DNA from: a virus
Virus record (IMG/VR): IMGVR_UViG_3300033553_000213
Coordinates: 1 to 43,922 of that record
Length of the DNA stretch: 43,922 nt
Direction: 5' to 3' (one strand)
Each line of letters starts with the position of its first letter. Positions within the stretch are counted from its first letter, which is position 1. A program made the position numbers and the translations under genes. Shown here piece by piece: positions 14,017-43,373 of the stretch. A model generated the notes under the pieces. The model was given only the letters and a program-made list of their open reading frames with translations, was not told the DNA's origin and ran no database searches.

Positions 14017-14178
14017 ATGAGAAGATTATTACTTGCAGTTGCAATAACTGCCCTATATGGCTGTGCTACTCAGCCTTACATTACAGTGGCCAATGATGCA
14101 ATCCATTACACTGTTATTGGTGCTTTACCAGTTCCTATCTATCTCCAATATAGTTGGGAGTTCTATGGACCGCAGTAA
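14017..14178 (+). CDS. Small lipoprotein, 53 residues
   Basis: Starts ATG at 14017 after AAAGG. The product begins MRRLLLAVAITALYGC: two Arg, a hydrophobic core and lipobox LYGC with lipidation Cys16. The mature part is only 38 residues, neutral, rich in Tyr and Pro. It lies between two hairpin or promoter-bearing gaps, so it is separately expressed. Phage lipoproteins this small are often superinfection-exclusion or outer-membrane receptor-masking factors (such as T5 Llp) or outer-membrane spanins; which one applies here cannot be told. A lone gene far from lysis genes argues mildly against a spanin. Confidence 0.8.
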   Translation: MRRLLLAVAITALYGCATQPYITVANDAIHYTVIGALPVPIYLQYSWEFYGPQ

Positions 14179-14240
14179 AAACGTAGGTACCTGACATATA
14201 ACTTGTATTAAAATCAATTTATATAAACGGAGACACTAAC

Positions 14241-15098
14241 ATGTCAAATGAGCACAACGATACAGAACAACACCCTATTGAAGCTAGTGTGACTACAGTT
14301 TCACCTGAAGACTATGGTAGGCTTCAAGCTATGGAAAACCCACACCCTGATGACTTTAGTGTTCGAGCTGATGAAAATATAACCAAAGAAATGCCAGAAG
14401 GTTTTAAGTACGAAGATGAAGAACCTACACAGGCTAGTGTGGAAGGTGTTGATTGGAATGGCGATGACTCCGATGGTAGTGACGATAATATTGATATGGT
14501 AAGGGCCCATGCTGAATTTGGTAATGATGTCCATGTAACTGACTTTAATTATACTTCAGAAGAGTTAATAGGTTCTATTGAAGAGATTGGTAAAACACTT
14601 AGCATGGAACCTGGATCTCTAGTAAATATAGGTAAAGTTAATGAAAGATGCCAAGCATACTCAGTAGCGCTTGAAGCACTTCGTTTTGTACGTGCCCACG
14701 AGGCTAAGTCACCTGCACCAATAACAATGGCCACGGCTAAGCTAGAAACTCCTAGTGAAGCTCCTGAGGCTTCTGAATATTCTTTAATAGAGAAGAGTTT
14801 CTTAAATGACTTGGCTAACTCTGTAGTTAAAACTGAAGTTGCTATACCTGATATTGTTAAAATGTTATCCGGTATGCAGGCACAGCTTACACAAAACAGA
14901 GCTGACCAAGAAGAACTTGCTGGACTTTTAACCAATGCTATTAAAATGCAGGTTAGTTTAGTCGGCGGCATAAAGGGCATTGAGGCTAAAGTTAATAGTC
15001 TACCTGCACATACTGAAAGTCTATCTACTATCGTCGGGGATATTGGCGGATTAGCTGATGAAATTGCCGGTGTTAAAAACCAAATTAGAAACCTCTAA
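14241..15098 (+). CDS. Acidic coiled-coil protein, possible head-interior protein
   Basis: 285 residues. Residues 1-95 are strongly acidic and low in hydrophobics (DWNGDDSDGSDDNID), so likely disordered. Residues 185-285 have heptad-like spacing of Leu, Ile and Val and probably form a coiled coil. A Ser/Pro/Ala-rich linker joins them (KLETPSEAPEASEYS). Several Ser/Ala-x-Glu tripeptides could be prohead-protease sites. Start ATG 14241 follows CGGAG. The position two genes after the protease would suit an internal head or scaffold-like component, but this is inference; no homologue is recognised. Confidence 0.7.
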   Translation: MSNEHNDTEQHPIEASVTTVSPEDYGRLQAMENPHPDDFSVRADENITKEMPEGFKYEDEEPTQASVEGVDWNGDDSDGSDDNIDMVRAHAEFGNDVHVTDFNYTSEELIGSIEEIGKTLSMEPGSLVNIGKVNERCQAYSVALEALRFVRAHEAKSPAPITMATAKLETPSEAPEASEYSLIEKSFLNDLANSVVKTEVAIPDIVKMLSGMQAQLTQNRADQEELAGLLTNAIKMQVSLVGGIKGIEAKVNSLPAHTESLSTIVGDIGGLADEIAGVKNQIRNL

Positions 15099-15144
15099 TT
15101 AGTCTAGGTAATGTATGTTGAATTGATTCGAAATATTAATAAAC

Positions 15145-15155
15145 CTATATTACTA
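15145..15155 (+). promoter_or_regulatory. Early-promoter element CTATATTACTA (copy 1)
   Basis: Exact 11-base element shared with 26754, 32381 and 42289. It contains TATATTAC, matching the AT-rich early promoter core described for phiKZ. It lies 139 bases before the start codon of the 151-residue gene, leaving a long structured leader. Confidence 0.75.
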
Positions 15156-15183
15156 AGATGAACACAGTACAATAATGTACAAA

Positions 15184-15239
15184 AGAGTTAGTTGCAACTT
15201 ACTCTTAGGCCGTGTATTTTTATACACGTATGACCTAAG
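15184..15239 (+). promoter_or_regulatory. Structured 5' leader with two stacked hairpins
   Basis: Hairpin 1: AGAGTTAGTT/AACTTACTCT (15184-15205, one mismatch). Hairpin 2: outer stem CTTAGG/CCTAAG (15204-15239) enclosing CGTGTAT-TTTT-ATACACG (15211-15228). They share two bases. Mid-leader, between the early element and the ribosome site, they could stabilise the mRNA or control translation. A short GAGATCTC palindrome follows. Confidence 0.6.
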
Positions 15240-15293
15240 ATTTGAGAGAGATCTCGAAAATTAATTAAAAACTTTAAAATTAAAGGAGTAGAA

Positions 15294-15749
15294 ATGTCTA
15301 CTAAAACTTATAGTCAAGAAGTACGTGATGTAGCAGATTCAGTTAAAGCGAAAATGAAACTTGGTGACAATGGTATCGTTACCATGGATAAAGATGCATT
15401 CGAAGCTACGTTGGAAGGTACCGAACTATCGTTGAAAGATTTTAAAGCGTGTCAAAACCACCGTGACCTTTTTGTTGCTGGTCAAGGACTTGCATTGGGT
15501 GAGATCGGTCTTGCTGCAATGAAGAAAGATAAGAAGCTTCCTCAAGTATCTGTTGAAACTAAGATCCACAAAGATAAAGTCTCTGCTGCGTTCACTCGCT
15601 CTAAGATGGTATCAGATGGTAAAGGCGGACAACAAGAAAAGTTTGGTTCATTAGCATCTCGTGTTGTTGCTAATGGCGCAGGTAATCGTGGACAGCATAA
15701 GCTAGTTCGTGTTCACCTAAGCGACTTAGCTAAAGAAGCAATGGGTTAA
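15294..15749 (+). CDS. Early protein, paralogue of the next gene
   Basis: 151 residues. The N-terminal half is alpha/beta with FEATLEGTELSLKDFKACQNH (residues 38-58). The C-terminal half (about 88-151) is basic and Gly-rich, suggesting nucleic-acid or phosphate contact. It aligns along most of its length with the 172-residue product of the following gene (see the finding on this pair). Expression signals are strong: an early element, structured leader, AAAGGAG site and a tight terminator downstream, so it is likely abundant soon after infection. No known family is recognised. Confidence 0.75.
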   Translation: MSTKTYSQEVRDVADSVKAKMKLGDNGIVTMDKDAFEATLEGTELSLKDFKACQNHRDLFVAGQGLALGEIGLAAMKKDKKLPQVSVETKIHKDKVSAAFTRSKMVSDGKGGQQEKFGSLASRVVANGAGNRGQHKLVRVHLSDLAKEAMG

Positions 15750-15772
15750 ACAACTCTGCAGTTAGCAATTCA

Positions 15773-15803
15773 GAAAGCCGACATCGTCGGCTTTCTTTTA
15801 TGT
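15773..15803 (+). terminator. Strong intrinsic terminator
   Basis: GAAAGCCGAC (15773-15782), loop ATC, GTCGGCTTTC (15786-15795), then TTTTATG. A perfect 10-bp stem with a U-run that continues into the TATG signature seen at other gene ends here. Confidence 0.88.
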
Positions 15804-15846
15804 CGCTTATCATTTATTTTTTTAACATTATATTTAAGGAACAATA

Positions 15847-16365
15847 ATGGAAAATACATTTGTAGAACCAAACCGTGGAACTACTGGTCCAGTTACTGTG
15901 GACCCACGTATCATTGAGATGGCTGAAAAGTTCAGCTCTAAGATATACCCTGTAACAGCAGGTGATCCTAATAGATCAATTAGATATACTGCCGATGAGT
16001 ATCTATTTGAGGACTCACTAGATGGTACTGGGATTACAGTGGATATGGTTAAGCGCATCCATGACCATATGGATTTATATTACGCTGCACTGGGACTCAC
16101 TTTAGGTAATAAGCTTATAGATGATTTAGCATCGGAGCACCCTACTAATCCTAAACGTCTGGCACTTAAGCTACATACTGACGTAGCACATCGACGGGTT
16201 CTTACTACCATTAGAAGTCAAGAAGATGCAGATGCTGAACCCCTTCACTGGGATCTGGTTACTAAAGTCTCTTATATGCCTAGTCATAACTCTCCAGTAT
16301 ATGCGGATCTAAGAAAGGGACTAAGTATAAAAATCGCCAAGGTTCGTGAAGTACGTAAACCATAG
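15847..16365 (+). CDS. Paralogue of the upstream 151-residue early protein
   Basis: 172 residues. FEDSLDGTGITVDMVKRIHDH aligns with FEATLEGTELSLKDFKACQNH of its neighbour, and MDLYYAALGLTLGNKLIDDL with RDLFVAGQGLALGEIGLAAM; the following segments also keep spacing. It therefore arose by tandem duplication and has diverged strongly. It lacks the neighbour's Gly-rich tail. AAGGA lies 8 bases before the ATG. The intervening terminator suggests independent or read-through expression. No function is recognised. Confidence 0.72.
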   Translation: MENTFVEPNRGTTGPVTVDPRIIEMAEKFSSKIYPVTAGDPNRSIRYTADEYLFEDSLDGTGITVDMVKRIHDHMDLYYAALGLTLGNKLIDDLASEHPTNPKRLALKLHTDVAHRRVLTTIRSQEDADAEPLHWDLVTKVSYMPSHNSPVYADLRKGLSIKIAKVREVRKP

Positions 16366-28499: not shown

Positions 28500-30674
28500 A
28501 TGATTTTATTTGAAGAAGACTGGTATAAGTATCCACATGCCATCGCCGATTATAGTACCACCAATGAAACGTTTCTACGAATGGTGGCGCTATATAAAGA
28601 TATGGGTATTTCTAATTGTTTATGGCCTATCTCATTATTACAACCTGAGTTACAGGGAATTGACCCACATGCTGATAACCTGTCCGATGAGATAAAAATA
28701 AAGATTGGTTTAGAGTGTAAATATAACTTCTGGTATTACTTACGTGAAGTAGCTAGGATACCTCCTGTAGCTGGTCCTGTTGCTATCCCCTATAAAGCTA
28801 ACCGTGGTAACCTTGCATTGTCATGGTCGTTTATGTGTAGTATTGATTTTGCATTAATACAACCTCGTCAGACAGGTAAGTCAGTATCAACAGATATTGT
28901 AATGGATTGGTTAATCTACATAGGTGCATCCAATACATTGATTAACATGTTTACTAAAGATAACGACCTACGATCAAAAAACGTAGAGCGTTTAAAAAAG
29001 ATTAGAGACTTACTACCACCTTACATTATCAGTATCTCTAAGCAGGATTCAGATAACCAGATCGGTCTTACATGTTTGGCTCTAGCTAACTCATATGTAA
29101 CTGGTGTTGCACAGAACTCTGAAGCAGCAGCTAACAAGATGGGTCGTGGTTTGACTTCACCTATCATGCACATAGATGAGGCACCCTTCATTAAATATAT
29201 CGGTACTACTATGCCTGCAGCTTTGGCATCTGGTACAGCAGCTAAAGAGGAAGCTAAGTTACACGGTAGACCGTATGGTAACATCTTTACAACTACTGCC
29301 GGTAAGCGTGATGACAGAGATGGCAAGTACATGTATGAGCTAATCACTGGTGGAGCACCTTGGAATGAAGTTTTCTTTGACTCTTATGATAGAGATGAAT
29401 TGGTTAAGCGTGTAGTGAAAAATGGTAGTGGTAGAAAGATGCTAATAAATGGCACCTTTAATCACAGACAGTTAGGTAAGACGGATGAATGGTTATATGC
29501 AGCTATGGCAGATTCCAATGCATCTGGCGATGACGCTGATCGTGATTTCTTTAACGTCTGGACTATGGGTACACAAAGTTCACCTTTGACTGTTGAGTTA
29601 AACAAGACTATTAAAGATAGTGAACTAGATCCTCTATGGAGTGAGATTACTGATGAGTCTTACATTATCAGATGGTACCACACCGAAGCTGAGATAAAGG
29701 AGATGGTACACACTACACAATTTATTCTAGGACTAGATACCTCAGATGCAATTGGTCGTGATGCTTGTGCTTTAGTCTTTATTAATGTAGAGGATTTATC
29801 TGTTGTAGGTGCTGCTACTATTAATGAAACTAACTTGATTAGATTCAGTCACTTCCTTTCCAATATATTAGTTAGATATACCAATACTACACTGATTCCA
29901 GAAAGAAAGAGTTCTGCTCAATCAATTATAGATTCCCTTTTAATTACTCTACCTGAGAAAGGTATTGATCCTTTTAAAAGAATCTTTAACCATGTTGTTG
30001 ATAATCACCATACCAGAGAACGTGAGTTTGCTGAAATTACACAGAGTACGTCTAGGCGTAATAATGCATTCTACGATAGATATAAAAAGGTATTCGGTTT
30101 TAATACAACTGGTGAAAGTCGTGCATTACTTTATTCTACTGTATTACAAAACAGTGCTAAGAATTCAGGACATGTACTTCGTGATAGACCTTTATCTAAT
30201 GAGATTAGGGGACTTATCGTTAAGAACGGCAGGATAGATCATAGCAGTGGCAGTAATGACGATATGGTTATTGCATGGCTAATGACTCAATGGATGCTGG
30301 TTCACGGTAAGAACTTAACGTACTATGGAATAGACGGTAGTCGAGCCCTTAGTAAAGTTAGTAATGTAGGTAAGGAACTTACATTGGAGGATTTGTACGA
30401 TAAGAAGTTACAGGAAGATATTCAACATGAGATGGAAGATATCTATGAAGAGTTAACTACCTGTAATGAGGAATATATGATTGCTAAATATGAGTCACGT
30501 CTACATGCATTAGGCAAGCGTGTTAAACTCTCTGCAGATAACACTCTTAGCATTGACTCTATGATAAGTACCGCAACTGAGCTACGTAAACACAGTAACC
30601 GTAGGAAGGCTATGGAACAACGTCAAGCCAATGTTAGGAATAGACGCCAATCAATGGGTGGTTGGAGAAGATAA
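28500..30674 (+). CDS. terL: Terminase large subunit (DNA packaging motor)
   Basis: 724 residues. ATPase: Walker A PRQTGKS (about residues 122-128) and Walker B IMHIDEA (Asp226, catalytic Glu227), with a following coupling region GNIFTTTAG. C-terminal RNase-H-like nuclease: FILGLDTSD (about residue 408 on), IPERKSSAQS near 465, and the last acidic site SGSNDDMVIAW (about 583-593). It packages genome into proheads at the portal and cuts concatemers. Own transcription unit between two terminators. AAGGAAAAG precedes the ATG. In phiKZ the equivalent is gp25, next to the genes 26-30 module, matching the order here with an early block inserted between. Confidence 0.93.
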   Translation: MILFEEDWYKYPHAIADYSTTNETFLRMVALYKDMGISNCLWPISLLQPELQGIDPHADNLSDEIKIKIGLECKYNFWYYLREVARIPPVAGPVAIPYKANRGNLALSWSFMCSIDFALIQPRQTGKSVSTDIVMDWLIYIGASNTLINMFTKDNDLRSKNVERLKKIRDLLPPYIISISKQDSDNQIGLTCLALANSYVTGVAQNSEAAANKMGRGLTSPIMHIDEAPFIKYIGTTMPAALASGTAAKEEAKLHGRPYGNIFTTTAGKRDDRDGKYMYELITGGAPWNEVFFDSYDRDELVKRVVKNGSGRKMLINGTFNHRQLGKTDEWLYAAMADSNASGDDADRDFFNVWTMGTQSSPLTVELNKTIKDSELDPLWSEITDESYIIRWYHTEAEIKEMVHTTQFILGLDTSDAIGRDACALVFINVEDLSVVGAATINETNLIRFSHFLSNILVRYTNTTLIPERKSSAQSIIDSLLITLPEKGIDPFKRIFNHVVDNHHTREREFAEITQSTSRRNNAFYDRYKKVFGFNTTGESRALLYSTVLQNSAKNSGHVLRDRPLSNEIRGLIVKNGRIDHSSGSNDDMVIAWLMTQWMLVHGKNLTYYGIDGSRALSKVSNVGKELTLEDLYDKKLQEDIQHEMEDIYEELTTCNEEYMIAKYESRLHALGKRVKLSADNTLSIDSMISTATELRKHSNRRKAMEQRQANVRNRRQSMGGWRR

Positions 30675-31082: not shown

Positions 31083-32312
31083 TTACACCGACCCCTGATA
31101 ATATTTCTTAGCAAAGGCACGTAACACTATGTATAGTTGTAAACCAGTTCTAACAGATGCTAGTGCTGCTTTATTTCTACTTGAAACACTACGTTTGATA
31201 ATCTTGTTAGATAAGTCTCGCATCTTTAAGAGTTGGTCGTCTGACATACGGGACGCTAAGTAAAGATTCTTTAATTTAATTACTAGCCCACCAATATCCG
31301 ATGAGCTCTGCATGATACCATCGTTATCTGACAAATAACGATAAACGTGTAATAGCGATTCATCAATTAGTTTCTCAACATTCTTATCACCGTGTTTACC
31401 ATAGTTATCAGAACAATATTCCAATGCCTGTAAAAGATATTGCTTATTAACAGTGTGTAAGGCATCTGTAATAATGTCTATAAGCTCTTCTCGTATAAAG
31501 GTAGGCTTGTCTGCAATGATGTCTTTTAAATAGCGTGTATAAGCTGTGTGATCTCGGGTACGATCTAAGATCTCTTTCTCACCATCAAATTCAACAACTG
31601 TTTTAGTACTACTGATTCTAAGATTCTGTTCACGCACTCTATCAAAAACATCTTTCTGTTTCTTAACAATGTTACGCAATCTGTCTTGAATATCAGTAAT
31701 CATGTTAATAACACCTTGGTCATCATTCATCGTACTGTATGTTTTATAATGGATGCCGTGTCTATCAATGATATTTTTAGAGCGATGCTCTAATAGTCCT
31801 TGCCAACTACCTTGTTGCTTAATATCGAACTTACGACTCAAAGCTTCATATGTAGCAATTGCCACTTCTTTATCGGCACGGTATCTAAAGAAATTCCAAA
31901 GTAAACTAGATAGGAACTTATATTGAAGCAATAGACATACTTCCATCATACCTTTTTCTTTATCCTTAGGAGATAAGTCAGAATTATAGATCCTATGAAG
32001 AATATATATGCTGCTAAGGTTTATGAGGTCGTTAGCGCGTACCCAACTAGGGTCTATTGTTTTGATGTCTTTAAGTCCGGGTTTTAAATCCGCTTCGTCA
32101 ATTTCTATTATTTCATCAAACCAATTATCCCTATCTGAACTTTTATACTTAATTGGATTTACACCAATTAGGTTACTAGTAAAAAACTCAAGATGATCTT
32201 CGTTACGGTTCATAAACTCTACACGTAACTCTTTTAAATCTTTTATAAATGATCTATCTATTTTAATATGATCTAAGTTTTTATCGAACAACTCTTTAAT
32301 TTGTTTGGCCAT
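31083..32312 (-). CDS. Unknown helical protein beside terminase, 409 residues
   Basis: Almost wholly alpha-helical and highly charged, with long Lys/Glu/Asp/Arg segments (ITDIQDRLRNIVKKQKDVFDRVREQN around 213-238 suggests a coiled coil). No membrane segment, signal or catalytic motif is visible. It has an AGAGG site upstream and its own promoter region, divergent from the early unit at 32381. Conserved position beside terminase would suit a packaging, head or virion function, but that is inference. Confidence 0.68.
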   Translation of the reverse strand: MAKQIKELFDKNLDHIKIDRSFIKDLKELRVEFMNRNEDHLEFFTSNLIGVNPIKYKSSDRDNWFDEIIEIDEADLKPGLKDIKTIDPSWVRANDLINLSSIYILHRIYNSDLSPKDKEKGMMEVCLLLQYKFLSSLLWNFFRYRADKEVAIATYEALSRKFDIKQQGSWQGLLEHRSKNIIDRHGIHYKTYSTMNDDQGVINMITDIQDRLRNIVKKQKDVFDRVREQNLRISSTKTVVEFDGEKEILDRTRDHTAYTRYLKDIIADKPTFIREELIDIITDALHTVNKQYLLQALEYCSDNYGKHGDKNVEKLIDESLLHVYRYLSDNDGIMQSSSDIGGLVIKLKNLYLASRMSDDQLLKMRDLSNKIIKRSVSSRNKAALASVRTGLQLYIVLRAFAKKYYQGSV

Positions 32313-32380: not shown

Positions 32381-32391
32381 CTATATTACTA
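32381..32391 (+). promoter_or_regulatory. Early-promoter element CTATATTACTA (copy 3)
   Basis: Exact copy, preceded by CACAC as copy 2 is preceded by CAC, and followed by GTATGATAAT. It lies 68 bases before the 39-residue gene and is the only early element upstream of the 32.4-40.3 kb array. Confidence 0.78.
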
Positions 32392-32581: not shown

Positions 32582-33355
32582 ATGACTAAAGAACTACTTT
32601 TAAGATTAAACAAATATGCAGCAGTGACCTTTTTGACTGTAGTCTCTACGATTACAGTATCGATGGGCATTAACTTATATATAGACCACCGTGATCCAGC
32701 GCCCCTTATTTCATTGTACGAAACTACACCTATGGAAACAGCTGTACATGAATCAGTATTTAAAGCCGTGGATGCACCCATTGAAGACAACGGTATTGAA
32801 TATACTTTTTATACTGAATTAGAGAATGCTACACTTGCAGTAGATACAGTCCTAGCTTTGCCAGATGGTTTAGTTGAAGTTCCTATTATTCTTATGGATG
32901 GTAAGGAAATTGCATTGGATGATGATCTTACGTGTTTAACTATGAATATATATTTCGAAGGAAGAAACCGTTCTGTTAAAATGCGTAAGGGTTCTTCATG
33001 GACTGTAGTAAATAGAATTGGTAGATACCATAATAAAGATATTTGTGATGTGGTAACTAATTCTAGAAAGGATGCTACTAGTGGATTACTTGTTGAAGAT
33101 GAGTGTCACTATTCTTGGTATTGCGATGCACGTGAAATCTTAAAGGTTGGCGAGAATCCAATTGAGAAGCAAGCATATAAAGATTCAGTTAAAATTGCAC
33201 GCACTATTATTAGACAGGCATCTGTGGATAAAGAGAAGTATGACTTTACAAACGGAGCTACACATTACCACAGCATGAACGTATCGCCATACTGGATATC
33301 TAGTATGACATATCTTACAGCCTATGCTGACCACCTGTTTTATCAGGGTTATTAA
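32582..33355 (+). CDS. Membrane-anchored SleB-like cell wall hydrolase
   Basis: 257 residues. An N-terminal anchor (residues 11-33, YAAVTFLTVVSTITVSMGI) places the rest in the periplasm. The C-terminal domain (about 113-257) matches the SleB/Hydrolase_2 family: LTMNIYFEGRN with catalytic-type Glu126, VVNRIGRYHNKDICDVV, HYSWYCD, and the closing GATHYHSMNVSPYW (residues 225-238) then HLFYQ. Family members cut the glycan strands of peptidoglycan. The oddity is placement behind an early-type promoter, unlike a normal late endolysin. It could remodel the wall after entry, resist superinfection, or be a lysis enzyme with delayed activity. Confidence 0.85.
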   Translation: MTKELLLRLNKYAAVTFLTVVSTITVSMGINLYIDHRDPAPLISLYETTPMETAVHESVFKAVDAPIEDNGIEYTFYTELENATLAVDTVLALPDGLVEVPIILMDGKEIALDDDLTCLTMNIYFEGRNRSVKMRKGSSWTVVNRIGRYHNKDICDVVTNSRKDATSGLLVEDECHYSWYCDAREILKVGENPIEKQAYKDSVKIARTIIRQASVDKEKYDFTNGATHYHSMNVSPYWISSMTYLTAYADHLFYQGY

Positions 33356-33358
33356 ATA

Positions 33359-33390
33359 AAAGCCCGGGGATTAGACCCTGGGCTTTATGC
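33359..33390 (+). terminator. GC-rich hairpin followed by TTTATGC
   Basis: AAAGCCCGGGG (33359-33369), loop of 6, CCCTGGGCTTT (33376-33386) with one G-U pair, then ATGCTATT. It separates the hydrolase gene from the unknown-gene array, which has no early element of its own. Confidence 0.8.
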
Positions 33391-33412: not shown

Positions 33413-34225
33413 ATGAATAATAATAATAATACACAAAAAAGAAATATAGAGTTGGGAACATATGCGGCTATTATATCCGAGACAATAAAGAGCGGTAAAC
33501 ATTACACACCGATTATTTGGGGTGAGATTCATAATGTCAATGTAACCTGTGACGACGTTGCTCTGCCGGTAGAAATACCTGATGCAGAGTACTGCATTAA
33601 CATTCAGTTATCTGGTAGACTTAATACCTTTATTAAGGAATGGTTTGCACGATATACGTATGAACAAATTCCTGTATCTATCACCAATGGGTTCTTGGGC
33701 CGTGAGCTTTATTTTAATATAACGACTACTGAAAAAACTATGCATATAGTTATTTCAGCCATTGACAATATCTTTAGAGTATTGGCCGATGATATTCAGG
33801 CTAGGCCACATCGCTCTATTGAGAAATGGCCCCTTACTATTGATGCTCTTTTCTTAAGCGATGGTGATTGGAAAATTGTTGATGATCTCGATATTTTTCC
33901 AGCTTACATAATGCATTGTGTTATACCCTCTGGTGTAGAGGTTATGCAACTTAATGCCCACCATGAGTCTGGCGTGATAATGATAGTTCGACATGATCTT
34001 GATTGGTATTATCGTAAGGTACTTAATGGATTGGAAACAGGGAAGGTTTCTCATAAGGCCGGTCTTATTAAATACGGTATCAGTGAAATCTTAATTGCTG
34101 ACTCTGTGGCATTGGCATTAGTAGTAGAGTTCCCAAAAGCTCCATCCGGTACTGATTATCCCAATAGACCAATTGACGGTTTCTGTAAAATGTGTTCAGA
34201 GATTACGGCTAATGGAAATACTTAA
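33413..34225 (+). CDS. Array gene 1: unknown, 270 residues
   Basis: Begins MNNNNNTQKR (AAT run) after GAGGAAA. Contains the array signature INIQLSGRLNTFIKEWF (residues 62-78), a following beta strand (ELYFNITTTEKTMHIVIS) and helix, then DIFPAYIMHCVIP near 165, resembling the second signature IFPIY of later array genes. It ends with Cys-x-x-Cys (FCKMCSE), possibly metal- or disulphide-forming. Soluble, no signal peptide. It may be an early member of the duplicated family at 36-40 kb; function unknown. Confidence 0.66.
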   Translation: MNNNNNTQKRNIELGTYAAIISETIKSGKHYTPIIWGEIHNVNVTCDDVALPVEIPDAEYCINIQLSGRLNTFIKEWFARYTYEQIPVSITNGFLGRELYFNITTTEKTMHIVISAIDNIFRVLADDIQARPHRSIEKWPLTIDALFLSDGDWKIVDDLDIFPAYIMHCVIPSGVEVMQLNAHHESGVIMIVRHDLDWYYRKVLNGLETGKVSHKAGLIKYGISEILIADSVALALVVEFPKAPSGTDYPNRPIDGFCKMCSEITANGNT

Positions 34226-34237
34226 AAAGGAATTAAA

Positions 34238-34489
34238 ATGATATTAATATATTTAGCAATAGGTGCTGCATTAGTTTGGTATCTATATTACTTAGCAAAT
34301 AGAGCCGCAAAGATAGATGGTCCTATTATTGATAGTTGGCCAGATACTTTAAAACTCTCGGTAACGGCTTTAATAGTCGCTATTGTATTAGGACCAATCT
34401 TAATATTTGTACCTATCTTAAATATACTGGTATTGTTATTGCCGGTAGCTCCTATCGTAGGTAAACTCTACCCATATAAATTTTTATAA
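34238..34489 (+). CDS. Small integral membrane protein, 83 residues
   Basis: Two to three hydrophobic spans: residues 2-20 (ILIYLAIGAALVWYLYYLA) and 42-76 (long, LSVTALIVAIVLGPILIFVPILNILVLLLP), joined by a polar loop with IDGPIIDSWPD. AAAAGGAA precedes the ATG. The only membrane protein of the array. Holin-like topology is possible, but the context gives no lysis partner except the upstream SleB-like hydrolase. Confidence 0.66.
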   Translation: MILIYLAIGAALVWYLYYLANRAAKIDGPIIDSWPDTLKLSVTALIVAIVLGPILIFVPILNILVLLLPVAPIVGKLYPYKFL

Positions 34490-34496
34490 GGACAGC

Positions 34497-34889
34497 ATGA
34501 GTATCACACAAGAAGAAGTTAAGAAAAGAAGTTGTATACCTCATGAAGACTTTATTCAATGTAGAGTTCATTCTAAGGCTGCAGCTATTCATAAAGAGAC
34601 TACTAAAGGAATCTCTTTAGCTGATACCATTTATCAGTTCACTGACCTTATTCCAATATATGTAACTGACGATGTTATTGAATTTACAGGAGATGAAAGT
34701 AATGTAGCAGAGATGATTAAGGTTATCTCGCTATGTGTAAACAATGTCCCTGAGGTTCAAGTTAACTCGGGAACTAAATATGTGGATGGGTGTGATAACC
34801 GTATAAACTTCACAGTGTTTCTCTTTCCAACTGAAGATAGTGTTATCCACTTAGAAAGAATATTGGATAGTCACCTAACTAGTATATAG
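34497..34889 (+). CDS. Array gene: unknown, 130 residues
   Basis: Soluble alpha/beta protein, 7 bases after the membrane protein gene with AAGGA overlapping its end. Contains IEFTGDESNVAEMIKVI (61-77) and a late strand-helix INFTVFLFPTEDSVIHLERILDSHL, the same order (G-D motif, strand, helix) as other array products, but weakly similar. Membership in the duplicated family is uncertain. Confidence 0.6.
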   Translation: MSITQEEVKKRSCIPHEDFIQCRVHSKAAAIHKETTKGISLADTIYQFTDLIPIYVTDDVIEFTGDESNVAEMIKVISLCVNNVPEVQVNSGTKYVDGCDNRINFTVFLFPTEDSVIHLERILDSHLTSI

Positions 34890-34902
34890 CTAAGGGAGTC
34901 AT

Positions 34903-35433
34903 ATGGCTAATAAACAAAAAAAGGCAATTGAAATAAATCCAGTAGCTCAACTATTATTCAATAATCAAGGAAATGGTCGTGTAACTCGAACATTAGAATT
35001 GGTTAGCTGTAGTAGATTGGGTGTTGTTAAGACTATTGCTCGATGGGATCAGGGTATTAAAAGTGCAAAACCATTACTGAAGCGATTACATGGTGACAAT
35101 AAACTACACGTGCTTTTTCCGGTATGTAAGGATATGTTTAATCGTGTAATCCTTGCTCCAATCGGACCTACGGATATTGAGCGTCATCTAGACAATAGCC
35201 CACCAATCATTAGTGAACGGGAACTATTGTCATTAAAGCTACTAACCTTAAATATTGATGGGGCGTTTATTGAGTTAAATAACCACCGAGCGGATGGGTT
35301 TGGGTTTTGTCTAGTTACTTATGAAGTTAAGGGAATGGTACCAAGTACTAAAAGTATGGCACAACCAGCCCCAGATGTATATATGGTAGAGGCTGATTTG
35401 AGAAGTGTCATACCACTTTATGCAGATTTTTAA
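34903..35433 (+). CDS. Array-region gene: unknown, 176 residues
   Basis: Basic N-terminus (MANKQKKAIEINP), then alpha/beta segments (NKLHVLFPVCKDMFNRVILAPIGPTDIERHL). It does not show the G-D/N-L signature of its neighbours clearly. TAAGGGAG precedes the ATG. A small hairpin follows at 35458. No family is recognised. Confidence 0.6.
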   Translation: MANKQKKAIEINPVAQLLFNNQGNGRVTRTLELVSCSRLGVVKTIARWDQGIKSAKPLLKRLHGDNKLHVLFPVCKDMFNRVILAPIGPTDIERHLDNSPPIISERELLSLKLLTLNIDGAFIELNNHRADGFGFCLVTYEVKGMVPSTKSMAQPAPDVYMVEADLRSVIPLYADF

Positions 35434-35457
35434 ACCACTTAGATGATATATCATTAC

Positions 35458-35479
35458 ATACTCTAATAGAAGAGAGTAT
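35458..35479 (+). terminator. Weak intergenic hairpin
   Basis: ATACTCT (35458-35464) and AGAGTAT (35473-35479) with an 8-base loop, followed by TAAG. Also nearby is the palindrome ATGATATATCAT. Likely an attenuator or RNA-processing site inside the array. Confidence 0.4.
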
Positions 35480-35527
35480 TAAGTTAATGAATATCTGCGA
35501 AACTATAACTAAAGAAGGGTTATTCAA

Positions 35528-36088
35528 ATGTTAAAATTTAATGATTTATTTACTTTTAAGAAATGTGATATTAATACTTATACGGAAACCAGTGACCCTA
35601 TTATAGTACCGATCATAGAGGTGAAGTATGAAGTTGCTGACTTAGTGCGCCCAACAGCAACTGCGGCATTAATCCAAATGGTTACCGATTGCCAAGCTGG
35701 TGAATACACTATGGAAGATGATTCGTGGGGTGGTGATCCCTCAATATCATTGTTTTATGAAGCAAGTCCATACAACAAAGCTGATATAAAGAAATCAGTT
35801 ATGGAAACCTTTAATAAATTATACGAAAGTATAAAAATTATTGGTGTGACTGTGAGTCATGGTGATTTAGTAATAGCTTTACCTAAACCTAATAGACACT
35901 ATCATGTAATTAACCACATGGTAGATGTGTTAGGTATAACACCACCTATAGGTCACGGTGACCAAGGTTTTTATTTAAGTGATGGAACGTACTTAAATAG
36001 AGAAGCTGCACGTGACTATGCCTTGGTGATTGGTCAGGTAGAAACAACTGATCACGATAGAGAGTTGTTCTCGGAAGACTTGTGGTAA
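35528..36088 (+). CDS. Array-region gene: unknown, 186 residues
   Basis: Soluble, acidic C-terminus (ETTDHDRELFSEDLW). Mixed alpha/beta with IKIIGVTVSHGDLVIALPKPNRHYHVINHMVDVLGI (about 97-132) as its best-defined strand-helix unit, vaguely like the array module. A 15-codon frame ending over its start (35488-35533) might be a leader, but has a poor ribosome site. AGAAGGG precedes the ATG. Confidence 0.6.
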   Translation: MLKFNDLFTFKKCDINTYTETSDPIIVPIIEVKYEVADLVRPTATAALIQMVTDCQAGEYTMEDDSWGGDPSISLFYEASPYNKADIKKSVMETFNKLYESIKIIGVTVSHGDLVIALPKPNRHYHVINHMVDVLGITPPIGHGDQGFYLSDGTYLNREAARDYALVIGQVETTDHDRELFSEDLW

Positions 36089-36112
36089 CTGTCTATAGTT
36101 TTAAGATACTGT

Positions 36113-36125
36113 GGTGTTTGACACC
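36113..36125 (+). other. Small hairpin upstream of the 90-residue gene
   Basis: GGTGT-TTG-ACACC (36113-36125), 26 bases before the ATG at 36151 and before the AAGGGG site. Too short to terminate alone; may mark RNA processing. Confidence 0.35.
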
Positions 36126-36150
36126 CAAACAATAAAACAAGGGGACTAAC

Positions 36151-36423
36151 ATGTCTAGAACTATGAGAGAAACATTAGAAATAATCCTTAGAGAATGTGC
36201 TGGAGATACGATAACCCTTACACGTTTCGTGGACGCTGGTAATGGTCCAGTTAAAGCTTTACTTACTGGCGATGTTGAAAAACTTATTGAATTTAAACAT
36301 GAGTTTAAATATGCCAGAGTTGAGGCTGGTATACCTGTAGGAAAATATGTAACATTATATTTCACACGTAAAACTGCTGACAGCACCTTTAATTCAATAG
36401 AACTTATTCTATTAACCTTTTAA
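36151..36423 (+). CDS. Array module protein, single copy, 90 residues
   Basis: Shortest form of the array module: VKALLTGDVEKLIEF (residues 34-48), then a strand VTLYFTRKTADS and a terminal hydrophobic segment. Basic/acidic mix with no membrane span. Aligns in order with ILHGNLSALTIF and SLEGNIRVLSMV of the 227- and 231-residue products. AAGGGGA lies 10 bases upstream. Function unknown. Confidence 0.6.
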   Translation: MSRTMRETLEIILRECAGDTITLTRFVDAGNGPVKALLTGDVEKLIEFKHEFKYARVEAGIPVGKYVTLYFTRKTADSTFNSIELILLTF

Positions 36424-36440
36424 TTAAAAGAGAGACCAAT

Positions 36441-37397
36441 ATGACTACACCCAAATATAAGAAAACTGATTTAATAGAACTTGTTAAAAAATATACAGGT
36501 GACTATGCCGCAATTGAGATTCTAGAGCAAGAAGGAACGGATGATGCAGTGGTAGTCAAGATAGGTGGCGACTATGCTGTATTGGCTGAAAACGTTGATC
36601 GTATCCGCCACGGTATGATCTATCAGGTAAATGAAAATGATGATTATGCTTTTCTATCATTCAGTATTAATGATGCTGATGATGTCTTAGACGATATTGC
36701 CGATATATTAATTCAAGCCAAGGCTGAAGTGGAAGCATTGGGTAAACTTAAAAGCAATGGTGAGATATTAGATGTTGTTAATGCAGCTATTACTAGTAAA
36801 TCATTGGAGCCTTTTGTTATCGTAACTAAGGTTAATATCAGTCGCTCTGGATTAGTGTTTAATTTTACATCTAATCTAGAAGGGCTTGTCAATGAGTTAA
36901 CTTCCTGGAATGAAGGACGCTCTAGAAAGGCTGTGGTAGAAGATGTAGATGAAGGATATAGCCTTTATCTTGAAATGGATATAGTAGACTTCCCGAAGTT
37001 TATATGTAAGTTTAACGAGCTATTAGTTCTTACAGGTGAGATCCCTGAAATTAAAAGTATTGTTAGTTCTATTACAATGATCAAAAATGATATCCCTCTA
37101 GCACTATCAATGTCTGGGGAGTTTGTGGATGAACATATTTCTGTAGCACTTCAGGGTGAGTTATCGAAGTTTGTAAATCCTAATGGCCGTACTGAAGTTG
37201 CCGGTATGTTTAAAGATGAAGTTATCATCGTTAACGTGATATCGCTTGATGAACACATTGTGCGTGATCTAAAAACTGTGTGTCAATCTTCCATTGATAT
37301 CCCTGAGTTACCTGAAGGTTACACAGGTGTTCAAGCACACATTCCTAAAGATGGATGGGAACTTTTCACTGTAGCATTGGCTACAGTAAGCGAATAA
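36441..37397 (+). CDS. Array module protein, apparently multi-copy, 318 residues
   Basis: The longest array product. Three segments repeat the pattern of strand, Gly-acidic-aliphatic turn, strand, helix: around residues 36-92 (VVVKIGGDYAVL ... FLSFSINDADDVLDDIADIL), 128-200 (FNFTSNLEGLVNEL ... LYLEMDIVDFPKFICKFNELL) and 228-285 (ISVALQGELSKFV ... VIIVNVISLDEHIVRDL). It looks like an internal triplication of the module. Acidic, soluble. AAAAGAGAG precedes the ATG. Confidence 0.62.
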   Translation: MTTPKYKKTDLIELVKKYTGDYAAIEILEQEGTDDAVVVKIGGDYAVLAENVDRIRHGMIYQVNENDDYAFLSFSINDADDVLDDIADILIQAKAEVEALGKLKSNGEILDVVNAAITSKSLEPFVIVTKVNISRSGLVFNFTSNLEGLVNELTSWNEGRSRKAVVEDVDEGYSLYLEMDIVDFPKFICKFNELLVLTGEIPEIKSIVSSITMIKNDIPLALSMSGEFVDEHISVALQGELSKFVNPNGRTEVAGMFKDEVIIVNVISLDEHIVRDLKTVCQSSIDIPELPEGYTGVQAHIPKDGWELFTVALATVSE

Positions 37398-37419
37398 AAA
37401 AAAAAGAAGGGTACAAAAA

Positions 37420-38103
37420 ATGACAAATTCACAAGAACTAATGCCAATGGCCGATCTTACCAATGAACTACAGGGTAAGATTAATAAACAATCATTATCT
37501 ACAGTGATTAATCTATCAGAGGTAGAGAATTATAAAGATCTAGTTAGAGTTATTCTACATGGTAACTTAAGTGCATTAACTATTTTCGAAAAACGGGATA
37601 GTAAAATTCGCACTACCTTTCTATCAGGTTTACTTGGAAGTCAAGATGCTGTCACCATTGTATTTAACGCAAATATGTGGACAGAGTTCACCAATCTCTT
37701 TGATGAGATGCTAGAGGTATTAATTCAGAGACCTGCAGTCAATGTGGCGCTAAGTGCCAATGCTATTAATGATGTACTTACTATTAGTCCTGAAAAGTTT
37801 AATGAATGTCAAAGTGTATATTTCAATACACCTACTGATGAGCTTTTTGATATACTGACACTTATTGAAGATATGCCTACATATCTAGTTCCTGTGCAGT
37901 GGGATGAAACTGAGCTAGCTGTAGTTTGTGGTCGCAATGCCGATAGTGAATTAATCGAACTACTTAGACTACTAGATAGTATCGAGGAAATTAATTGGTG
38001 CGTGGCTACATTTATCGTTCACTCAGATAAAACGCCGGTACTTTATTTTAGGTTTAGAACCCCTACTGAAAAAGAAGTGGTGTTTGAACTATTAACAAGA
38101 TAA
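37420..38103 (+). CDS. Array module protein, 227 residues
   Basis: DLVRVILHGNLSALTIF at residues 40-56 aligns position for position with DLIRLSLEGNIRVLSMV in the 231-residue product. It is followed by VTIVFNANMWTEFTNLFDEMLEVL, then a second half with DELFDILTLIEDMP and LYFRFRTPTEKEVVFELL. GAAGGG lies 9 bases upstream after an A-rich run. Soluble and acidic. No enzyme motif. Confidence 0.64.
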   Translation: MTNSQELMPMADLTNELQGKINKQSLSTVINLSEVENYKDLVRVILHGNLSALTIFEKRDSKIRTTFLSGLLGSQDAVTIVFNANMWTEFTNLFDEMLEVLIQRPAVNVALSANAINDVLTISPEKFNECQSVYFNTPTDELFDILTLIEDMPTYLVPVQWDETELAVVCGRNADSELIELLRLLDSIEEINWCVATFIVHSDKTPVLYFRFRTPTEKEVVFELLTR

Positions 38104-38119
38104 TTAGGAGATAGTGAAG

Positions 38120-38602
38120 ATGCCAGAATTTAACGAAGTGATGCACCTATACTTAGAAGGAATTACATTAAATACAGCGCATGTCTCAAATAGACTTTGT
38201 GTAGATAGAGATATGTTTTCTAGTTGGGAAGACACGGTTGGGGATATTCCTGAAAATGCAGCTAGGATCAATTGTCATCATTACGACATATGCCCTACTG
38301 GATTTGTAGCCATTGATCAACGTGGCATGGACTTTACATTTGTTATATCTGAAGATAGGGCATGTAATTTACATAGAATTATTTATCAGATGGCAGATAT
38401 ACCTAATCTATCTTGGGTGCCATATAGATTTCAGCTTTATGGTGAAGTGTATAATGCCATGCGTATTACTGCAAATGATTTAGGTACTCATCCAGGAAGT
38501 GCCATTGATATGTTTAGGGAATTATTGTGGGATGGTTTAGAGCCACCTGCAAAAAAACCTAAAATGTCAGTAGATGGACAGACCCTAAATATAGAAACTT
38601 AA
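38120..38602 (+). CDS. Array-region protein, 160 residues
   Basis: Start set at ATG 38120, nine bases after TAGGAG; a GTG at 38114 is too close to that site. Contains several Cys and His (INCHHYDICPTGF near 51-63) and FTFVISEDRACNLHRIIYQMADI, comparable to the strand-helix of the array module. A basic stretch KKPKMS occurs near the C-terminus. Clear family membership cannot be shown by eye. Confidence 0.6.
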   Translation: MPEFNEVMHLYLEGITLNTAHVSNRLCVDRDMFSSWEDTVGDIPENAARINCHHYDICPTGFVAIDQRGMDFTFVISEDRACNLHRIIYQMADIPNLSWVPYRFQLYGEVYNAMRITANDLGTHPGSAIDMFRELLWDGLEPPAKKPKMSVDGQTLNIET

Positions 38603-38611
38603 GGAGGTAAC

Positions 38612-39307
38612 ATGGAAACAGCTATTACAGAACGAGGCTTCGAACTAATGAAGACTAAGATTAGTGCATTGATGTACAATACTCCAATTAGTCATTCTAT
38701 CATTAGAATGTTCATTAATTCTGAACAGGACTTAATAAGACTTTCTTTGGAAGGTAATATAAGAGTGTTGTCGATGGTGCTAAAGGGTAGTGAGTTTGTC
38801 GTCTATGTTGAGCTTGTACCTGAAGGAGTTGATGAGGTTGCAATTTACTATAAGCAACACCAATGGAGTAGGCTACTCCAGTTACTGACATCTACTTTTA
38901 ATGACATTAATGAAAAGGCCATTAATGCCGCCATTGAGGCTGAAGAGTATAGTCACTATAAATGGGGGCGGCCTTCAGAGGTAGCACTGGTATCACTAAA
39001 TGAACAGGCGATCAACTGTGGCCTGGATGACATATATCCTATCTACAGTGTACTAGAGGCTCTACCTAGAGGTTCTTTTGTCATTGGTAACAGTGGTTCA
39101 AATATATCTATTGTATTTGCCAACACAGGTACTGATGAACGCATGGACATTATATTTGGGCTCAGTCAAAATGAAAACTACGATGTCTGGTTAGTGAATA
39201 CCATTGTAACTGAAACTAAGGTAAAGGCAATGGTAATTAATAGTGCAGATAAAGGACCACTAGATATGGAAATTCTAGCTGGTAATATTCATGATTGTTT
39301 AAAGTGA
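38612..39307 (+). CDS. Array module protein, 231 residues
   Basis: First signature DLIRLSLEGNIRVLSMV (40-56), strand-helix VAIYYKQHQWSRLLQLLTSTF, second signature DDIYPIYSVLEALP (about 139-152) shared with EAIFPIYDSLSEIR of the 218-residue product. AAGGAGG precedes the ATG, one of the strongest ribosome sites in the array. Soluble, acidic. Function unknown. Confidence 0.64.
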   Translation: METAITERGFELMKTKISALMYNTPISHSIIRMFINSEQDLIRLSLEGNIRVLSMVLKGSEFVVYVELVPEGVDEVAIYYKQHQWSRLLQLLTSTFNDINEKAINAAIEAEEYSHYKWGRPSEVALVSLNEQAINCGLDDIYPIYSVLEALPRGSFVIGNSGSNISIVFANTGTDERMDIIFGLSQNENYDVWLVNTIVTETKVKAMVINSADKGPLDMEILAGNIHDCLK

Positions 39308-39317
39308 GGACTTAACA

Positions 39318-39647
39318 ATGGAAAATGAAAAGGATACCGATGAGGCCATTGAAGTAATAATGGCTAGAATTAAGTATACACTAATTACGCTGTTTATGCA
39401 TAGTGGGATGATGCCTGCTGTAGACATTAGAGTTATGCATAAGTCAGTACGTATGAGTGTTCAGGGGGATGTTAAGTGGTTCTTAGATACTGAGTTTGAT
39501 TACCCAAAGGTAAGAATCAATATCGTACCCCAAGAACCTCAATTAAGGGATTTGCTTATGTTCGCTGTAGCTGTTGAAGATGCTAGTGAATTTGCAGATG
39601 CTTTATTTCAACAGTTAGCTAAAATCAAAGGAGCTACCACCGGGTAG
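39318..39647 (+). CDS. Array module protein, single copy, 109 residues
   Basis: SVRMSVQGDVKWFLDTEF (43-60), VRINIVPQEP, then LLMFAVAVEDASEFADALFQQL. It is a half-length form equal to the first half of the 218-residue product that follows (ARVTIEGGLTADFIASGF, KMSVIPTS, LLVCPYTELIGLAESI), which is the clearest adjacent pair. TGAGGA lies upstream. Confidence 0.64.
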   Translation: MENEKDTDEAIEVIMARIKYTLITLFMHSGMMPAVDIRVMHKSVRMSVQGDVKWFLDTEFDYPKVRINIVPQEPQLRDLLMFAVAVEDASEFADALFQQLAKIKGATTG

Positions 39648-39664
39648 TTCAGGGGGGGTATTAA

Positions 39665-40321
39665 ATGAATAATGATAAAATTCTTACCGAAGCACATATG
39701 GTCAGACCAGTACTTAGAAATCTATTTACTAAATACACCAAAGGTTCGGTAGTTCCAAACGTAGATGTTAAAGTTTGTTATGGATATGCAAGAGTTACAA
39801 TTGAAGGTGGGTTAACTGCTGACTTTATTGCCTCTGGATTTACACACCCTAAATGTAAGATGTCAGTTATACCAACGTCTCATTACTATGGTCAGTCTGT
39901 TCTTTTAGTTTGTCCATATACTGAACTCATTGGTTTAGCCGAATCTATTAGACTAGTTATGCGGTATATGACATATCAATTAGAGTTTAGTGGTTATGTT
40001 ACTCACCAACGGCTTATGGAGATTAAAGGATCGCTTTTATGTGATTCTTTACATATGGGTGAGTCTTTACCCTTTATATTAGTTGCTCCAGAGGCTATCT
40101 TCCCAATCTATGATAGTCTTAGTGAGATACGCTTTGCTATAGGTGGGTATGATTCACCTAGTTCATATTTGTGGCTTTCTGAGCTTGCTACTAAGGTTGG
40201 TGCTAGGCTGACATCTATTCCTTCAACTAGTTCTGATTACGATTATCCATTCTTTAGACTGGATATTCCTGATATAGAAGTTAGAGAAGCTTATATTGAG
40301 GAACTTGAATTAATGGAGTAG
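39665..40321 (+). CDS. Array module protein, last gene, 218 residues
   Basis: First signature ARVTIEGGLTADFIASGF (42-59), strand-helix LLVCPYTELIGLAESIRLVM, second signature EAIFPIYDSLSEIR near 142-155. Its ribosome region is unusual: a seven-G run (GGGGGGG) 7 bases before the ATG instead of AGGAG. It ends the array; a long hairpin with a T10 run follows. Confidence 0.63.
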   Translation: MNNDKILTEAHMVRPVLRNLFTKYTKGSVVPNVDVKVCYGYARVTIEGGLTADFIASGFTHPKCKMSVIPTSHYYGQSVLLVCPYTELIGLAESIRLVMRYMTYQLEFSGYVTHQRLMEIKGSLLCDSLHMGESLPFILVAPEAIFPIYDSLSEIRFAIGGYDSPSSYLWLSELATKVGARLTSIPSTSSDYDYPFFRLDIPDIEVREAYIEELELME

Positions 40322-40757: not shown

Positions 40758-41405
40758 CTATGCTTTGATACTAACCAAGCGTTTTGTATTAAGCTTGCCC
40801 TTCTGTACGAACTGTAACATCTTAGAACGAACTAAGTCATAAGGCTTAACTCTACTAGCAACTTTCTTACTATACATCTTGATACCACTAGCACGAAGTA
40901 TCTCAGTTACGAACTCAGAACAAATCATGCTTTCTTTATTGGTATTGAAGATATCCATATTAAAGATTGCATTAATTAACCCTAAATGATTATATCTAGT
41001 TTTCTCTTCATTGGATGCCAACTCAATTAATTTCTCACTTACAGTAACATGCATTTTATCAGAGACTGAAACTTTATAGAGCGAGAACTTAACTCCATCC
41101 ATTTCCTCTACATCTTCTTTTGTAATACCACCAAATATCCCATTCTTACTATTAGATAGGCTATATGCATATATCCCATCAAAGTTAGGTTCTAGCATTA
41201 TTGATACGTGGTTATAGGGATCACCAGTAATGAACTTAGCTATCTTACTAAACCTAGTATTGGTATCAGTTAGTAGTATGTACAATGCCTTTTTCTTTTT
41301 AGGATTAGTCTTAGCATCAAGCATCGCTAGAGTTTCAGCAGAATAGATAGCCTCTAAGGATATATACTCCTCCTCTGGAAAATACTGAATTAGTTTCTTA
41401 GCCAT
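40758..41405 (-). CDS. Permuted papain-fold (YiiX/NlpC-P60-like) cysteine hydrolase, putative
   Basis: 215 residues. The order His then Cys is that of circularly permuted papain-like enzymes: GDPYNHVSIML with His66, and ESMICSEFVTEIL with Cys162 and following Glu164. In that superfamily the enzymes cleave peptide or acyl-amide bonds in cell wall or lipid substrates. A stretch of Lys (NPKKKKALYILLTDTNTRFSKIAKFITG) precedes the His motif as in family members (ILLTxxxxxxSxxIxxxTG). Its ATG overlaps the stop of the 268-residue gene, so they are coupled; this suggests a virion-borne wall or processing enzyme. The actual substrate is unknown. Confidence 0.72.
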   Translation of the reverse strand: MAKKLIQYFPEEEYISLEAIYSAETLAMLDAKTNPKKKKALYILLTDTNTRFSKIAKFITGDPYNHVSIMLEPNFDGIYAYSLSNSKNGIFGGITKEDVEEMDGVKFSLYKVSVSDKMHVTVSEKLIELASNEEKTRYNHLGLINAIFNMDIFNTNKESMICSEFVTEILRASGIKMYSKKVASRVKPYDLVRSKMLQFVQKGKLNTKRLVSIKA

Positions 41406-42211
41406 TATCGTCTACCTACTATCATTTTTAAATGCCTGCGCTTAGCTTCTGTATCAGATAGGATTGCTACACGACGCCAAGTGTCCTTTAGGTACTCTTG
41501 ATACATCTCATTTGAATCAGCATACCCATCTACTATCTCTAGGAATCTACCTAACTCACGACCACCTTCCAATTGAGCAGAGTCAATTTGTAAGATCAAT
41601 GTATTGTAGATATAAGCCTTTGTAGCCAATTCAACTAACTTAGAGAACTTAGGTACCGATGCAGCAGGTAAATTATTAAATTCAGAATCATTTTCTAGTA
41701 CACATCTTAAGAATAGAGATGGGTTAGAGGGATACAGTTGATCAGCCATTATAGTGTTCTCACCAATCAGTCTAATATTCGCATTTGAAATATTAGGAAT
41801 TGATTTCCAACTATCTAGCAATCCATCGGCAGCACTACTTAATTCACCACCACCCTGCATATTGGTATTCAATGAAGCTGAATTATAACCAGTACCGATG
41901 ATTAAAGAATATACTTTAGTTATCTTTCTATTGCTAGTTAGGTCAAAAGGTATACGCCAAACCGTTCTGTTTAGAGGGAAATGCTCAGGGACTACATTTG
42001 CCATTGGGATTGTTGTTTCTTGGCCACTGACTAGGTTTACATCAGCCATAACTCTAGCTTCTACGATCTCTTCACGAATACGGTAATCAATAGATACTGG
42101 GCTACGGTGGTTTATCATACCAAAGCCCGATTGCTCTACAAATGCGGCTTCTAGTATTGCTTTTGGGATTAGATACTTCAAATCCGATATGGACTTTTGT
42201 ATGGCATTCAT
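41405..42211 (-). CDS. Probable virion protein, 268 residues
   Basis: Soluble alpha/beta protein: an N-terminal helical region, beta-rich centre (TVWRIPFDLTSNRKITKVYSLIIGTGYNSAS), helical C-terminus with basic end (RRHLKMIVGRR). TAGGAG lies upstream. It overlaps the papain-fold gene and shares a late-type divergent gap with the PhuZ promoter region. Composition is like phiKZ-group virion proteins; a neck or tail completion role would be a guess. Confidence 0.62.
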   Translation of the reverse strand: MNAIQKSISDLKYLIPKAILEAAFVEQSGFGMINHRSPVSIDYRIREEIVEARVMADVNLVSGQETTIPMANVVPEHFPLNRTVWRIPFDLTSNRKITKVYSLIIGTGYNSASLNTNMQGGGELSSAADGLLDSWKSIPNISNANIRLIGENTIMADQLYPSNPSLFLRCVLENDSEFNNLPAASVPKFSKLVELATKAYIYNTLILQIDSAQLEGGRELGRFLEIVDGYADSNEMYQEYLKDTWRRVAILSDTEAKRRHLKMIVGRR

Positions 42212-42299: not shown

Positions 42300-42407
42300 T
42301 ATGGAGTAATAAACCAATTACTTAATTAGTCTAAATCCAACTAACCTTACAGAACATATCTTTTGTACAGTTATACAAATATTTTATCGAAAAAGGGAAA
42401 ATACATT

Positions 42408-43373
42408 ATGTCACAAGAACATGGTACGTTACGCATTTACGGCGCTGGTGGAACTGGTGTTAATATTGCATCTTATTTTAACAATGCTTCTAAGGAGCCA
42501 AACTGCGCAGACCTAAAGGTTTGTTATATTGATACAAGTCGATCTAATATCGACAGTAATATGAATGATGAAGACATCTTTGTATTACCGGGTGTTAATG
42601 GTTCAGGTAAATTCCGAGCTGAGAATGCTGGTGATATTGATAACGTAACAAAGAAGATTGTACTTGATTACCCACCTGAAAACTTCAACGTTGTTGTCTT
42701 CAGTGCATCTGGCGGTTCAGGTTCAGTTATCGGTCCTCTAATTATGCGTGAGCTTTTAAGTCGTGGTGAAAGTGCTGTAGCTGTTGTTATCGGTGGTGAT
42801 GAATCTGTTATCGAAGCTAATAACACATTGAATACTTTAAAGACGTTGGAAGCAATTTCACAAAAAGCTGATAAGCCATTAGTTATGTACTATGAACATA
42901 ATGAAGGTAAGCGTTCAGCAATCGATTCACAAGTCCAGTTAGCGATCAGTGCCCTTGCTGTATTAGCAAGTCAAGAAAACAAGCACTTAGATTCAATGGA
43001 TATTTCTAATTGGTTAAACTTCAGCAAGACCACTACTGTTCAACCTCAGTTAGCACAACTTGAAATCTATGTAGATGCCGAGACAGCTAATAAAGTACAA
43101 GATCCAATCTCTGTTGTAAGTATCTATGAAGATGCTGATCAAGATACATTGAAGTCTGTACCTGAGTATGCGGCGGTTGGTTACTTAAGTTCTAAGCCAG
43201 ATCGTTTTGATCAGTTCCATTACTTAATCAGTATTGATCAGGTTTCTAACATCGCATCAACTATCCAATCTACTTTATCTGAATATCAGACTCGACGTGA
43301 CAGTCGTGTTAAACAAGGTAGCATTGTTAGTAAAGGCGACTCAGTAAGTGACAATGGTTTAATTCTAGGCTAG
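42408..43373 (+). CDS. phuZ: PhuZ-type tubulin/FtsZ-like protein
   Basis: Start set at ATG 42408 (MSQEHGTLRI) after AAAAGGGAAA; an in-frame TTG at 42363 adds 15 residues without a site. 321 residues, like known PhuZ proteins. GTPase motifs: glycine loop YGAGGTGVNI (11-20), tubulin signature variant FSASGGSGSV (98-107) in place of GGGTGSG, and a T7-like loop HLDSMDIS (193-200), where Asp195 and Asp198 match the NxDxxD activating residues of FtsZ. PhuZ filaments centre and rotate the phage nucleus and carry capsids. The polar C-terminal tail (residues 295-321) is the usual site of filament contacts. Divergent; a TubZ-like plasmid-type protein is the alternative. Confidence 0.85.
   Translation: MSQEHGTLRIYGAGGTGVNIASYFNNASKEPNCADLKVCYIDTSRSNIDSNMNDEDIFVLPGVNGSGKFRAENAGDIDNVTKKIVLDYPPENFNVVVFSASGGSGSVIGPLIMRELLSRGESAVAVVIGGDESVIEANNTLNTLKTLEAISQKADKPLVMYYEHNEGKRSAIDSQVQLAISALAVLASQENKHLDSMDISNWLNFSKTTTVQPQLAQLEIYVDAETANKVQDPISVVSIYEDADQDTLKSVPEYAAVGYLSSKPDRFDQFHYLISIDQVSNIASTIQSTLSEYQTRRDSRVKQGSIVSKGDSVSDNGLILG

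Follow-up and report, generated by a model that had tools for sequence, protein, structure and literature searches.

Gene content and genomic setting of the array

The window analysed here is a virus record of 43,922 bases and covers part of the genome of an uncultivated phiKZ-like phage (chimallivirus). It carries a phiKZ-type TerL gene (28500-30674) followed by a phiKZ gp32 homologue, a DUF7484 gene and the PhuZ tubulin gene, in the conserved order found in phiKZ-type genomes. The jumbo-phage setting proposed in an earlier sequence-only reading was correct. Xanthomonas phage LucasX is closest to the window's TerL among phage records (51%) and likewise gives the best match to its PhuZ (44%), while the gp32 homologue belongs to a cluster of 60 members. 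About 14 genes extend from this homologue to DUF7484 and PhuZ, and almost none of them has a known family. The features of this interval are collected in Table 1.

Table 1. Features between the gp32 homologue and PhuZ. Held-out ranks refer to module profiles from which the tested product and its partner had been removed.
Feature	Positions	Strand	Evidence or remark
phiKZ gp32 homologue, conserved left border	31083..32312	-	30-37% identity to phiKZ, PhiPA3, LucasX and others
phiKZ-type promoter motif TATATTAC, upstream of hydrolase-array operon	32382..32389	+	motif count
Gene of a cell-wall hydrolase (PF07486) lacking the module; first large gene past the promoter motif	32582..33355	+	Pfam E 2.3e-8
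Strong hairpin in the hydrolase/array interval	33359..33386	+	-20.2 kcal/mol, z -2.9
270 aa product	33413..34225	+	module pattern visible, QLSGRL at residue 65; homology not established
Interspersed gene	35528-36088		C-terminal 65 residues match phrog_839 (function unknown), E 5.7e-8
90 aa product, one module	36151..36423	+	held-out rank 9/1868, E 2.3; z 4.0 to 39318 product
318 aa product with a minimum of two modules, perhaps three	36441..37397	+	held-out rank 10/1817, E 0.6
227 aa product, N-terminal module and second half	37420..38103	+	paralogue of 38612, BLASTP E 6e-6
162 aa product, between two paralogues	38114..38602	+	module not matched
231 aa product, IYPIYSVL at residue 141	38612..39307	+	paralogue of 37420
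109 aa product, single module	39318..39647	+	paralogue of 39665 N-terminal half, BLASTP E 3e-8
218 aa product, N-terminal module and second half, IFPIYDSL at residue 145	39665..40321	+	paralogue of 39318
DUF7484 gene (phiKZ gp42 homologue), conserved right border	41405..42211	-	Pfam 1e-80 and alignment
PhuZ tubulin gene	42363..43373	+	second promoter motif at 42290 upstream

The sequence-only reading had listed seven genes of this interval (33413, 36151, 36441, 37420, 38612, 39318 and 39665, named here by their first position) as built from one module, in which a strand and a glycine motif are followed by a helix. All seven genes were confirmed, and the motifs ILHGNL, SLEGNI and TIEGGL each begin exactly at residue 45, as had been described. 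Its assignment of one, two or three modules according to product size is plausible for the 90, 109 and 318 aa products. In the 218-231 residue products, the module profile finds no match in the second half. A second motif, IYPIYSVL or IFPIYDSL, recurs in the 231 and 218 aa products as stated; taken by itself, this resemblance falls short of significance (phmmer E 0.12-0.13). Most array products are acidic (pI 4.4-5.4), as are many other proteins of the window.

Sequence similarity within the array

Two pairs of products proved to be related by sequence, with phmmer, BLASTP and shuffled-score tests in agreement. The 37420 and 38612 products share 20% identity over 190 residues (phmmer E 8.5e-6) and resemble each other in their second halves also, and the 39318 and 39665 products share 27% identity over 73 residues. 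Both pairs gave a shuffled-score z of about 11-12 and phmmer E-values of about 1e-5 among 1802 genes. In contrast, the other 53 array pairs had a mean z of 0.34, compared with 0.08 for decoys (P ~0.04), and a comparison of the two pair profiles by hhalign gave P 0.41.

Modules were then delimited by hand and made into leave-one-out profiles, which excluded the tested protein as well as its partner and were used to rank about 1850 proteins. The held-out 37420, 36441 and 36151 products ranked ninth, tenth and ninth, respectively, with E-values of 0.6-2.3, and the held-out 39318 and 38612 products fell within the top 4%. The 39665 product was not recovered among these proteins when its pair was held out. 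Nor did the module profiles convincingly recover the 270 aa product of 33413, in which the pattern is visual only. The claim of a module shared by all seven products is partly confirmed: similarity is significant for the two pairs, the remaining pairs are near chance, the held-out products reach E 0.6 at best or are not recovered, and 33413 is unsupported.

In an alternative reading, 37420/38612 and 39318/39665 would be two independent duplications among otherwise unrelated accessory genes, the strand-Gly-helix pattern being a common local motif of small alpha+beta proteins, noticed by eye. Significance is limited to these two pairs, similarity elsewhere in the array being near chance, which counts against the common unit favoured below, and all leave-one-out E-values are at least 0.6. 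On the other hand, independent duplications leave the placing of three held-out products among the ten best of some 1850 proteins to be accounted for. We consider this alternative doubtful but quite conceivable.

No known family was found for the array products in Pfam, PHROGs or PADLOC, in agreement with the sequence-only reading, save for the C-terminus of the 35528 product. Weak PADLOC hits to Cas8a (0.0022), GajA (0.016) and SspE (0.04) covered short profile parts and were taken as chance. Scans of IMG/VR with the 36441, 38612 and 39665 products and tblastn of two of these three against phage records detected no relatives, nor did the 37420/38612 pair profile in 50 chimallivirus records, a search whose empty result carries no weight in itself, having no positive control. 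Searches of PDB sequences gave chance matches only.

Predicted fold of the proposed repeated unit

The 109 aa product of 39318 was modelled with AlphaFold2 from a seven-row alignment of window modules with this product at its head, resulting in a model with a pLDDT of 81.2 and a pTM of 0.72. Its elements (H2-27, E34-39, E43-50, H53-58, E65-70, E78-85 and H86-108) follow the order alpha-beta-beta-alpha-beta-beta-alpha, and the glycine of the ILHGNL/SLEGNI/TIEGGL-type motif marks the end of strand 2. A pLDDT of 81 does not prove the homology of the other modules, because the 39318 product was modelled from the mixed-module alignment. The 318 aa product of 36441, modelled from its single sequence, gave a whole-model pLDDT of only 39; within it, residues 106-197 (block pLDDT ~40-67) show a helix-strand-strand-helix-strand-strand-helix arrangement. 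A common fold is favoured since this block, folded independently, has the same element order as the 39318 model.

Both models also bear on the alternative of two independent duplications: the 318 aa product displays the element order without help from the other modules, and the mixed-module alignment yielded a confident model rather than a confused one. Similar Foldseek scores from many unrelated viral proteins, however, suit that alternative. Combined, the models make one shared fold likely for six products, 33413 being left out, and the case for it reasonable though unproven. The repeated duplication and rapid divergence claimed previously are borne out in sequence by the two pairs, and for about six products would be likely at the level of the fold only.

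Among solved structures, the top Foldseek matches of the 39318 model include SigE, an archaeal RNA polymerase subunit, SycE, SpcS and ARPC2. These matches are weak (best E 0.024, TM-scores 0.2-0.45), and since none falls below E 0.02 they offer no more than a lead to the fold class. In SCOP, SigE, SycE, SpcS and ARPC2 share the secretion-chaperone-like fold class. The type III secretion chaperones SigE, SycE and SpcS (PDB 1k3s, 1k6z and 4jmf) resemble the model in the order of helices and strands, but their TM-scores to it are 0.3-0.4 (0.28-0.37, below the 0.5 mark), they share no sequence similarity with it, and there is no secretion system. The secretion-chaperone fold also has one extra strand compared with the array unit.

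The LAGLIDADG homing endonuclease fold has the order alpha-beta-beta-alpha-beta-beta-alpha, equal to that of the array unit, and the poor model of the 318-residue product matched it with low scores. Unlike these endonucleases, the array products show no LAGLIDADG motif; for the 39318 model, one low-probability LAGLIDADG entry appeared among the 50 viral matches listed, and the 50 PDB matches listed contained no such entry. The Foldseek matches of the 318-residue model were discarded, the model being of low confidence. Separate modelling covered two products, with a confident 39318 model from the module alignment and a consistent 36441 model at low confidence.

The 39318 model also matched I7DNP3 of Pseudomonas phage PA7 (133 aa, TMq 0.54), which could be the counterpart of a candidate at phiKZ 213678-214079, also of 133 aa. 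Gp100, Gp200, Gp312, Gp671 and Gp674 of Bacillus phage G recur among the viral structure matches listed for this model; these five proteins are perhaps another expanded family with a similar topology.

A variable slot shared by chimalliviruses

The interval was compared across 80 IMG/VR loci and 11 named loci. The border genes occur in much the same order throughout, while the intervening genes vary and conservation is lower inside the slot than around it: homologues in another phage group exist for 89 of 232 slot genes (38%), compared with 884 of 1412 other genes (63%). For the called slot genes of the window, the number with such a homologue in the 91-locus comparison is zero. Private accessory genes between the gp32 homologue and PhuZ are common in chimalliviruses, and most chimallivirus accessory genes lack names.

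Tandem pairs were found in the slots of other phages as well. Klebsiella phage Eowyn and loci L012, L052, L074, L076 and L091 carry diverged paralogues in tandem, as pairs or triples, in the matching genome region near TerL/PhuZ, but these belong to protein families unrelated to the window array and usually comprise two or three copies; the module profile was not enriched in the slot genes of other chimalliviruses (P 0.54). In Eowyn (L003, 6458-12069), two separate diverged tandem pairs lie upstream of PhuZ. In L012 (18640-20086), a tandem pair whose first member is LamG-like (PF13385) lies between TerL and the gp32 homologue. L074 has three tandem paralogues of 310-319 aa in this interval (12981-15969, minus strand), and a family search with one of the three found none.

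Accessory arrays of this kind are expected in phiKZ-like phages, and the array is a new private case of a known phenomenon, the expansion of accessory genes within a variable slot of jumbo phages. To call it an undescribed system, as had been suggested, is an overstatement, because private slot genes are common in chimalliviruses and tandem pairs occur in the slots of other phages.

Expression context and proposed function

The window contains eight copies of the motif TATATTAC, against an expectation of 5.1. Four of the eight lie in intergenic DNA, which makes up 9% of the window; these four (15146, 26755, 32382 and 42290) are all plus-strand copies, and three of them have the extended consensus TATATTACTAnnATGA in common. 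TATATTAC is listed as the phiKZ promoter (PMC7058600), and AT-rich motifs like it are a mark of early operons in jumbo phages that encode an RNAP (PMC7598289). The hairpin beyond the hydrolase gene has no long T run and is a possible terminator or processing site. To judge from these elements, early expression of the array is only likely, because a hairpin of -20 kcal/mol separates the hydrolase gene from the array.

In phiKZ, the equivalent slot contains the gene for Dip (gp37, PDB 5ft0), an inhibitor that binds RNase E at its RNA-binding sites and was without homologues when it was described (PMC4980113). Like the array, Dip is acidic and encoded between the gp32 homologue and PhuZ; unlike the array, it is a single gene and not a run of paralogues, and only Dip has an established function. 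From the slot position, the variability, the promoter context and the presence of Dip in the phiKZ slot, we infer that the array products would be host-directed protein-binding factors, probably tools against the host, in keeping with the host-facing or counter-defence role suggested in the sequence-only reading. The array would best be read as a set of host-takeover factors that bind proteins and have expanded privately in this lineage.

The explanation we favour, to which we give a little less than an even chance, is a lineage-private, host-targeting accessory array in a hypervariable chimallivirus slot, with several products built on one duplicated protein-binding unit. The alpha-beta-beta-alpha-beta-beta-alpha unit of about 90-100 residues would have been duplicated in tandem and have diverged beyond sequence recognition. 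It might serve as a protein-binding scaffold, its element order resembling secretion-chaperone-like folds, and separate copies could bind, and then block or redirect, separate host proteins, as Dip does with RNase E. That the array represents an undescribed phage protein family, with one to three copies of such an adaptor each binding a different host or defence protein, as a modular toolkit in the position of Dip in phiKZ, is rather unlikely. If one small fold does lie behind many unrecognisable proteins, the Dip-type slot becomes a hunting ground for inhibitors of host machinery, to be read by fold-level rather than sequence-level comparison.

As an alternative to host takeover, the array could encode minor proteins of the virion or proteins of late assembly. 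The phiKZ slot also contains gp34 and gp35, virion proteins by annotation, the hairpin stands between the promoter motif and the array, and the sequence past the hairpin contains TATG, which forms the core of late promoters in phiKZ. A virion role is nevertheless improbable, given that a phiKZ-type promoter motif precedes the operon and that the products show strong divergence and have no detected relatives, both unusual in virion core proteins. It is very improbable that the products are remote members of the Dip family: they share its slot, are mostly acidic and are similar by eye to some Dip stretches, but phmmer and profile searches found no similarity to phiKZ gp37, the Dip structures 5ft0/5ft1 are absent from the 50 Foldseek PDB matches listed for the 39318 model, and acidity is widespread among the window's proteins.

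Elsewhere in the window, the neighbouring 151 and 172 aa products of 15294-16365 are diverged paralogues too (BLASTP E 1e-7 over 40 residues; phmmer 9.5e-5); the first matches phrog_9746, with the promoter motif at 15146 upstream. The product of the gene adjoining DUF7484 (40758-41405, minus strand) resembles a C92 permuted papain-like amidase, with a match to PF05708 below the cut-off (E 0.016) and one to phrog_1128 at E 1.1e-11.
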